A stretch of 39,958 nucleotides of DNA, from NCBI GenBank assembly GCA_023266875.1, contig JAHFOJ010000006.1, positions 1 through 39,958 of the forward strand. Reading direction: 5' to 3'. This stretch comes from Candidatus Giovannonibacteria bacterium. GTDB lineage: Bacteria > Patescibacteriota > Minisyncoccia > JACPKW01 > UBA11713. Positions 9,956 through 12,096 of this stretch are shown here, in pieces. A model generated the notes under the pieces. It was not told the DNA's origin, ran no database searches, and saw only the letters and a program-made list of their open reading frames with translations. The position numbers and the translations under genes are program-made. Within the stretch, counting starts at the first letter, position 1, and every line of letters starts with the position of its first letter.

Positions 9956-10525
9956 ATGTCCAAAAAATTTTATAAAAAAGGATTAGCTTGGGGATTCACA
10001 CTCATAGAACTTCTAATTGTCATATCAATTATCACTATTTTGTCGTCTATAGTGCTCGCTTCTCTTAATTCTGCCCGTGCGCGCGGGCGCGATACAAAAA
10101 GAATTTCGGACATAAAACAAATCCAGCTTTCACTTCAGCTTTACGCGGATGCTAATAGTGACAAATATCCACCAGGAGCACAAAATAATAGCACAGTAGC
10201 ACCAAATATAGTACTTCAGAACCTACTTGTACCGACTTTTATTCCTGTCTTACCAATGGATCCATCTAACAATAAACCATACGATTATCAGGCCTTAAAT
10301 AATTCTAGCGGGGGAGTTTGTAGCGTTGAACCATGCTATTTCTACCACCTCGGAACAAGTCTTGAGCAAGACAATGCAACAGCAAAAAATAATGATGTTG
10401 ATGCGTGTGCCCCTCCTGCGGCCGGATGCAGTCTTAGTGGCACTACAATAAACGGCAATGATACTACTGGTAAATGTATATCAACTGACCCCGGAACTAA
10501 CTTCTGTTTCGACGTCACCCCGTGA
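9956..10525 (+). CDS. GspG-like type IV pilin/pseudopilin
   Basis: 189 residues; a 13-residue leader ends in WG, then FTLIELLIVISIITILSSIVLA with Glu+5. The GspG-type pattern follows (ARGRDTKRISDIKQIQLSLQLYADANSDKYPPG), with the acidic C-terminal stretch YHLGTSLEQDNATAKNNDVDAC resembling the calcium-binding loop of GspG-family pilins. Six Cys in the C-terminal third may form disulfides. A TAGAAT hexamer ends 6 nt before the ATG. The RAYT element lies directly downstream. Confidence 0.82.
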   Translation: MSKKFYKKGLAWGFTLIELLIVISIITILSSIVLASLNSARARGRDTKRISDIKQIQLSLQLYADANSDKYPPGAQNNSTVAPNIVLQNLLVPTFIPVLPMDPSNNKPYDYQALNNSSGGVCSVEPCYFYHLGTSLEQDNATAKNNDVDACAPPAAGCSLSGTTINGNDTTGKCISTDPGTNFCFDVTP

Positions 10526-10527
10526 TT

Positions 10528-10548
10528 TACCGAAGTCCGACTTCGGTA
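10528..10548. repeat. REP-like palindrome, copy 1 (3' flank of RAYT)
   Basis: Arms TACCGAAGTC and GACTTCGGTA around a single C: a perfect 21-bp palindrome. It lies 1 nt beyond the transposase stop codon and 2 nt after the stop of the upstream pilin gene. Confidence 0.9.
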
Positions 10549-10549
10549 T

Positions 10550-11233
10550 TTAGTTTTCGAGAGTTATTTCTTTAATTTCTTCTGTATTGTCAGCGAGCCA
10601 ATCATCTAGATCTTTTTTATATTGCCCCGGATTTTCTCTATATTCTTTGAGATCTTTAGTACTCAAAATATTAGAATGGCGCGGGTTGCCTGTGTAATCA
10701 TGGAAGCTTGACCATGGGTAAGAATCCAGAAAATTTAACACTCCTTTAGATTTTTTTAAATTCTCTTTTCTCCATTCAGGAAATTCCAAGTCAAGAGGAT
10801 TTAGATGGATATAGTAAGGGAGATATTTAAAATGTGATTCTTTTTCTAGGCGGACCGCTTTATATTTTCCTTGAAACAATGGGCCTACTCGTTCGTATAA
10901 TTTATTAAAATAATTTGTGTAGCCGGTTCCGAGTTTCCTCATGAATTCCGTAACGCCGTTTTCGCTAGCCTGTCTAACCATAAGATGATAATGATTTGGC
11001 ATTAAAACAAAAGCTATAATTTCAACCAGCTTTTCTCCATACCGAAGTCCGACTTCGGTATTTTGGGGGTCGAAATAATGCCTATCATTCATTGAACTTA
11101 ACGTGCTATTAAAAACCGACAGTGAGTATAGAAAACGAACGCGGTCATGATCTTTCAAAAAAATCTTTCTTTTTTCCACGCCGCGGTTATATATATGATA
11201 TATTTCTCCAATTGCAGGTTTTTCTCTTCTCAT
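10550..11233 (-). mobile_element. REP-associated tyrosine transposase (RAYT, Y1_Tnp/IS200-like)
   Basis: 227-residue single-strand transposase coding sequence. It has the HUH motif MPNHYHLM (His81 and His83), the candidate catalytic Tyr105 in GTGYTNYFN, and the RAYT signature GPLFQGKYKAVRLEKESHFKYLPYYIHLNPL near 117-146. It is flanked by 21-bp palindromes in opposite orientation and carries a third copy in frame (residues 59-65, TEVGLRY). RAYTs are single-copy domesticated relatives of IS200/IS605 that mobilise REP sequences. The ORF is full length, so probably functional. It interrupts the pilus locus between a pilin gene and pilD. Confidence 0.9.
11040..11060. repeat. REP-like palindrome, copy 2 (inside the RAYT ORF)
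   Basis: Same arms and same central C as copy 1. It is in frame and encodes seven residues, TEVGLRY, just before the HUH motif of the transposase. Confidence 0.9.
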
Positions 11234-11245
11234 GTTTCTATGATA

Positions 11246-11266
11246 TACCGAAGTCGGACTTCGGTA
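11246..11266. repeat. REP-like palindrome, copy 3 (5' flank of RAYT)
   Basis: Arms identical to copies 1 and 2 but with central G, i.e. inverted orientation. It lies 12 nt upstream of the transposase start. Confidence 0.9.
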
Positions 11267-11307: not shown

Positions 11308-12096
11308 GTGCCACAATTGTTGTTTTGGATTTTTTCTCTGTTTATATTTTTTTTCGGACTTGCGGTTGGTAGTTTTTTGAATGTTCTCTCTTTTCGCTTT
11401 AACACTGGAGAATCTTTCGGTAATGTTCGTTCACGGTGTTTTTCCTGCGGATTGTCTTTAAGATGGTTTGAATTAATTCCGCTCGTGAGCTTCATTATTC
11501 TTCGAGGCAGGTGCGCGAGATGCAAAAGCCGGATTAGTATGCAATATCCGGCGGTTGAAGTTGCCACAGGCGCGCTTTATTTTTTATTTTTTAGAAAATG
11601 GATCGCTGATTTTTCGTTTTCAGGCAGCCCATTAATTCTTATTTGGTGGTTTATAATCGGATTTATTTTAATATTTCTTGCCGCCTATGACGCTAAACAT
11701 AAAATCTTGCCGGATAAGTTCAATTACGCCCTCGCCGCAATCGCGCTTTTGGGCGGAATTTATTTTCAAAAAGTTTCTTTACAGGATTTACTTTTGAGCG
11801 CTCTTCCAGCATTATTTCTTTTCCTAATTTGGCTTTTCTCTGGCGGACGCGCCATGGGCTTGGGGGACGCAAAGCTCGCGCTTGGCGGCGGTTTTTTCCT
11901 CGGGCCGTTTAAAATTTTTGAAGCCGCGGTTTTTGGATTTTGGGCTGGCGCGATTTACGGAATTTTCTTGCTTTTGTCAGGACATGTTAAAACTATGAAG
12001 GCCGAAATTCCTTTTGGGCCTTTTTTGATTTTAGGAATTCTCGCGGCCTTCTTTTTGCCGGATATTCTTGCGCCGTATTTCTATATATTCGGTTAG
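11308..12096 (+). CDS. pilD: Prepilin peptidase / leader peptidase PilD
   Basis: 262-residue polytopic aspartic protease that cleaves prepilin leaders and may N-methylate the new N-terminus. Visible features are GSFLNVLSFR at the start, the cytoplasmic CxxC pair (RCFSCG and RCARCK), catalytic Asp in AAYDAKHKILPD near residue 130, and the second catalytic Asp in GLGDAKLALGGG near 190. About seven membrane helices. The GTG start at 11308 is preceded by TACAAT ending 6 nt upstream. It should process the six or so prepilins of this locus. Confidence 0.93.
   Translation: MPQLLFWIFSLFIFFFGLAVGSFLNVLSFRFNTGESFGNVRSRCFSCGLSLRWFELIPLVSFIILRGRCARCKSRISMQYPAVEVATGALYFLFFRKWIADFSFSGSPLILIWWFIIGFILIFLAAYDAKHKILPDKFNYALAAIALLGGIYFQKVSLQDLLLSALPALFLFLIWLFSGGRAMGLGDAKLALGGGFFLGPFKIFEAAVFGFWAGAIYGIFLLLSGHVKTMKAEIPFGPFLILGILAAFFLPDILAPYFYIFG

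Follow-up and report, generated by a model that had tools for sequence, protein, structure and literature searches.

A probable REPtron variant in Patescibacteria, with a third palindrome inside the transposase gene

Why would a transposase gene contain, in frame, the same palindrome that stands at both of its ends? The question arises from a locus in the window, our term for the whole stretch of 39,958 nucleotides analyzed here, which is one contig of a source genome of 684 kb in 25 contigs. Judging from protein matches, a genome from its family is probably Ca. Giovannonibacteria, which would make the source organism a Patescibacterium. The original prediction read this locus as a REPtron, that is, a RAYT gene with two palindromes in opposite orientation 1 and 12 nt from the ORF, and with a third copy in frame inside it. 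The coordinates (Table 1) bear out this arrangement, as does the perfect inverted repeat of 25 nt that the flanking copies form together. All three copies share one 21-bp palindrome, TACCGAAGTCsGACTTCGGTA, the orientation of which is set solely by the central base, C or G. As single-stranded DNA it folds into a hairpin with a stem of 9-10 bp and a loop of 3 nt (z about -5), and the internal hairpin is also present in the predicted fold of the RAYT mRNA (z -4.46 for the entire transcript). The RAYT gene is encoded on the opposite strand to both of its neighbors, a pilin-like gene and a prepilin-peptidase gene.

Table 1. Positions of the RAYT gene, its palindromes and its neighbors in the window
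Feature	Position	Strand	Remark
RAYT / TnpA_REP-like HUH-Y1 transposase, 227 aa	10550..11233	minus	ORF 11233..10550
Downstream REP-like palindrome TACCGAAGTCCGACTTCGGTA	10528..10548	.	1 nt past stop codon
Internal REP-like palindrome, in frame	11040..11060	.	aa ~59-65 = TEVGLRY
Upstream REP-like palindrome TACCGAAGTCGGACTTCGGTA	11246..11266	.	12 nt ahead of ATG
Putative prepilin-peptidase gene, named from its sequence	11308..12096	plus	conserved-locus marker
Pilin-like gene, GFTLIELLIV leader	9956..10525	plus	RAYT neighbor opposite the peptidase gene

The RAYT protein matches the Pfam family Y1_Tnp (PF01797) above the cut-off (E 3e-7) and the NCBIfam family REP_Tyr_transpos (NF047646) under the curated cut-off (E 1.1e-9). 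A phmmer search of the PDB with the protein gave no match; the best PDB match of its AlphaFold2 model (mean pLDDT 89) is 4er8, the E. coli RAYT with a REP hairpin (E 2.1e-6, TM 0.63 by target). Residues H81, H83, Y141 and N145 are invariant among 52 homologues, and the HUH motif is joined by the Y---NP signature of class 2 TnpA_Y1 (PMC6006769), with the catalytic Y141 accompanied by N145-P146. In the model, the palindrome-encoded residues lie within a coil of low confidence (41-69) that links a helix (28-40) to the strand preceding the HUH motif (70-77). They had been described as lying just before this motif; they are indeed upstream of it, but 16 residues away from H81/H83 and not adjacent. 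As modeled, the internal palindrome is housed in a flexible, disordered loop that tolerates changing peptides.

The palindrome is not restricted to the RAYT locus. The exact 21-mer has eight copies in the genome and its 13-nt core, GAAGTCsGACTTC, has 21 sites, against none for the reversed-pattern control in either case, and five unlinked copies are identical to the RAYT palindrome. This repetition across the genome agrees with the view of a REPtron-like unit. Some 15 of the 21 core sites occur within ORFs and keep the reading frame, three are intergenic (two of these being the RAYT flanks), and three are uncertain N-terminal cases. The in-frame copies reside in recG, tsaE, rsmA, cca, ileS, uvrB and tkt (transketolase subunit; all NCBIfam assignments) and use all three reading frames (EV[GR]L, S[RP]TS and KSDF). 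In-frame copies are thus common in ordinary genes of this genome and do not set the transposase gene apart. Among the 93 genomes searched, the core was found in 32 and the control in two. A RAYT homologue is present in 17 of the 18 genomes with at least three core palindromes versus 33 of the 75 others (p 1e-4, phylogeny ignored).

Occupancy of ordinary genes varies between species. The TsaE loop that follows SPTFILMRVFR has no insert in G002 and G004, and holds differing palindromes in G000, G001 and G005, which indicates that insertion of palindromes into permissive loops recurs elsewhere than in RAYT genes. The tsaE gene of L010 (G000:C9:3689-4318) has two palindrome insertions, one mid-protein and one a degenerate C-terminal pair; the C-terminal pair is common to G000, G002 and G005, and is absent from G001, G003 and G004. 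In G005 (L245-L253) and G001 (L254-L257), dispersed palindromes mostly form REPIN-like inverted pairs with centers 18-25 nt apart, and such pairs also occur in frame in genes. At L253, an IF-2-like motif (GGITQHIGAY) lies beside the palindrome. The ileS product (L238, G000:C7:1-1800) matches phosphoglycerate-mutase/SixA histidine-phosphatase models at residues ~160-324, within the isoleucyl-tRNA synthetase.

How old the internal copy is can be judged from gene order. The succession pilin, RAYT, prepilin peptidase is found in the window and in G001, G002 and G005 (other genera of the same family), G068 (another family), L018, L020, L137 and L139; L018 lies near a contig end, and there the peptidase neighbor alone is seen. 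Judging from these nine genomes, the RAYT is a single-copy gene that is vertically inherited at a fixed pil locus. Each of the nine syntenic orthologues has the internal copy, and its codon phase never varies among them. Because it has the same aligned position and phase in proteins that are 47-65% identical, homology at the syntenic locus is a better reading than re-insertion, and the synteny rules out a recent insertion limited to the source genome. Absorption of a target, as in the original prediction, is not supported as a recent event: besides the nine orthologues, roughly two in three related RAYTs of Patescibacteria have an internal copy of this type.

The palindromes of these orthologues have nevertheless changed. 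The inner stem, GAAGT/ACTTC, is almost invariant across the nine, whereas pairs 1-4 of the outer stem exist in 2-3 Watson-Crick types (2-4 among 16 members of the clade), and the outer-stem changes in the syntenic orthologues are compensatory. In most of these genes the internal arms are exactly those of the same gene's flanking copies, and in G001 and G068 partially so; the copies at the locus change in concert. G002 and G005, for example, belong to one genus; the former has TCCGAAGTCGAACTTCGGA three times and the latter TACCGAAGTCsGACTTCGGTA three times. That the inner copy matches the flanks although the palindrome differs between species suggests that it is kept, and is not a chance passenger. 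As a 21-nt match is unlikely to survive such divergence unattended, it appears to be maintained by selection, homogenization or both.

The source genome provides further instances. It has four Y1 genes. The palindrome of the C14 RAYT gene is TTGGTAACCsGGTTACCAA, present upstream of the gene, within it and downstream, with one mismatch in the downstream copy. Further palindromes of this type occur elsewhere in the genome; trmD and glyS (NCBIfam) hold two of these, both in frame. The C2 RAYT gene has an imperfect palindrome type, GTCGAAC-NTNGANN-GTTCGAC, at the same three places. In each of the three RAYTs, the internal copy is that of its own flanks, and never that of another RAYT.

We surveyed 185 distinct RAYT ORFs from 80 database loci and related genomes, 156 of which are the closer relatives. 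The ends match in 113 of the 156, and an internal match to the gene's own flanking repeat was found in 106, whereas swapping the flanks among genes leaves 1-2; about 28% of the relatives are without an internal copy. Eighty internal matches fall into the linker that precedes the HUH motif (site A), and 19 follow the Y motif (site B). Mutual exclusivity of the two sites is unsupported (p 0.24), so we rejected the idea of an either-or requirement. Where a palindrome is present both inside and beside the gene, an 8-nt arm is identical between the two in 59 of 77 cases (shuffled mean 1.15, max 6). The 156 genes contain 75 internal palindromes with arms of at least 9, while synonymous codon shuffles predict 6.9; together with the counts of exact and core copies in the source genome, this rules out a chance palindrome. 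Over the whole RAYT tree, presence at site A changes 39 times (null mean 51, min 42), and since it is labile to this extent, gain and loss of the internal copy must also occur.

Two other candidate arguments from the survey were discarded. Constancy of codon phase does not prove homology: there are seven changes versus a null mean of 19.7, but six versus 8.6 (not significant) with palindromes open in all three frames. Selection for stop-free palindromes is visible only as a weak excess (49% versus 37% in the null), and it does not differ according to whether a type has an internal copy. Individual genes show further variety. In the L053 RAYT gene, two palindromes in the linker and several more upstream of the gene (CAGGTGsCACCTG) look like an expansion, and the L139 / L032 RAYT has an imperfect palindrome, CCGGATGTTCCACTTCCGG, with the identical mismatch in flanking and internal copies. 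Possible internal copies were seen in three of the 24 distant RAYTs checked, L089 (Neomarinimicrobiota), L091 (a bacterium) and L093 (Saprospiraceae), so the trait may extend beyond Patescibacteria. The only classical RAYT checked, rayT of E. coli K-12, has no internal palindrome copy.

What, then, keeps the internal copy in place? Rewriting in cis by the RAYT protein is the answer that we tentatively favor over a regulatory function or ordinary gene conversion. That conservation of the seven residues serves the protein, the palindrome being a by-product, is highly improbable. E-V-x-L does recur within the clade of the window, but the residues change along with the palindrome while pairing is preserved, the same site in other clades holds unrelated palindromes and peptides, and the internal copy is identical to flanks that are non-coding. 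The orthologues do not repeat the same seven residues in DNA that is not palindromic, and the turnover of the peptide contradicts protein-only conservation of TEVGLRY. Passive recurrent insertion would have REPs enter the permissive loops of any gene, the RAYT linker being one such loop, with no maintenance at all. The changing occupancy of the TsaE loop, the location of site A in a flexible linker and the use of all three frames in other genes would fit; we nevertheless consider this explanation rather unlikely, since occupancy in 106 of 156 RAYTs contrasts with the sporadic occupancy of the TsaE loop, and since identity of aligned position and phase under synteny weakens it at the locus of the window.

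Two further explanations accept that the copies are kept alike. Homogenization could proceed without the transposase, through ordinary gene conversion or template switching during replication, acting on inverted repeats that lie close together. The copies are palindromic and 206 and 512 nt apart, and the orientation of the central base flips freely among them, all of which suits such a process. Identity extends to the five unlinked copies, however, and presence of the palindrome goes with presence of a RAYT, which makes this route doubtful. Alternatively, the internal copy could be a regulatory site, its hairpin in the mRNA or the transcribed strand binding the RAYT protein or slowing translation and so limiting the transposase, with selection keeping the match in specificity. 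Retention with compensatory stem changes in every syntenic orthologue, DNA-level identity to the flanks in most (synonymous sites included) and the hairpin in the predicted mRNA fold speak for this possibility, and it was proposed earlier that REP hairpins might down-regulate RAYTs, much as happens with IS200 transposases (PMC3733652). Against it stand the choice of position, either A or B without mutual exclusivity, and the relatives that do without a copy, and we regard it as possible but less than probable.

On balance, though only narrowly, we read the locus as a variant of the REPtron that is inherited vertically and has a third REP maintained inside the transposase gene; rewriting in cis would maintain the copies. 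The RAYT protein would recognize palindrome hairpins in single-stranded DNA and now and then copy or rewrite them, those in and beside its own gene most often, while the remaining copies would spread in frame through coding genes. All three copies at the RAYT locus would change in concert in this way, the internal one as a long-standing part of the gene. Copying would be the work of the RAYT protein itself, for which the co-occurrence of core palindromes and RAYT homologues across genomes gives indirect support, and the internal copy may owe its maintenance to RAYT action or to a regulatory use of the hairpin. Counting against this reading, the hairpins have no GTAG-type tag at their foot, presence at site A is labile over the whole RAYT tree, and in G005 the outer arms of the dispersed copies differ from those of the RAYT copies. 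A bolder proposal is that the embedded palindrome is an obligatory part of these transposase genes, a cis site by which the protein would sense or edit its own gene, with target and coding piece co-evolving and the same enzyme writing in-frame tags into essential genes; this we put forward as speculation that will probably not hold.

The closest known systems are REPtrons and their RAYTs (PMC2817692; Di Nocera 2013, PMC3733652; Quentin 2018, PMC6006769). In known systems, two REPs flank the RAYT (PMC2817692, Nunvar 2010), which is single-copy and vertically inherited (PMC8049555). The present locus shares with them the HUH-Y1 class-2 Y---NP protein, the low-copy, vertically inherited gene, the two inverted palindromes at the gene ends and the dispersal of related palindromes, some as inverted pairs. 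It differs in the third, in-frame palindrome inside the gene in most members, in its occurrence in Patescibacteria, in the low copy number (8 exact, 21 core) and in dispersed copies that are mostly within coding genes, where classical REPs are extragenic. A GTAG or GTGG tag at the hairpin foot was not enriched (GTAG 9 in 256 flanks versus 9 in shuffles; GTGG 1 versus 7), nor did the same check find a CGTC tag; as there is no GTAG-type tag, recognition would differ from that of classical REPs. We file the locus as a REPtron variant because it seems to work like a REPtron while two classical REP features, the GTAG tag and the extragenic position, fail. TIRtrons, with their TIRYT (PMC3733652), also combine a RAYT-like gene with flanking inverted repeats that lack GTAG, but at the present locus each repeat is a self-complementary hairpin, and a third copy lies within the gene. 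Elements of the IS200/IS605 type (IS608, ISDra2) share the Y1 fold and hairpins at the ends of the unit, whereas the gene studied here is single-copy at a conserved locus, with no sign of moving.

Intragenic REPs and Rickettsia palindromic elements (RPEs) are already known (PMC3733652, PMC10969869), and CGTC repeats, some RPEs included, have no dedicated transposase (PMC3733652). In the literature searched, outside of which many subscription papers lie, we found no report of a REP inside a RAYT gene or of palindromes in Patescibacteria RAYTs. Like RPEs, the palindromes described here lie in frame in functional protein genes (recG, tsaE, rsmA, cca, ileS, uvrB, tkt, trmD and glyS), with housekeeping and DNA-repair genes (uvrB, recG) among them; unlike RPEs, which are ~150 bp long, they are units of 13-33 bp or short pairs, and they are linked to a RAYT that bears the same palindromes. 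To our knowledge, it is unclear which enzyme spreads Rickettsia-type elements within protein genes. In this genome, in-frame palindromes of essential genes co-occur with a RAYT whose own gene has that palindrome both next to it and within it. A fixed locus at which three copies change together offers a direct test of whether RAYTs rewrite REPs, and bears on why hosts retain RAYTs.
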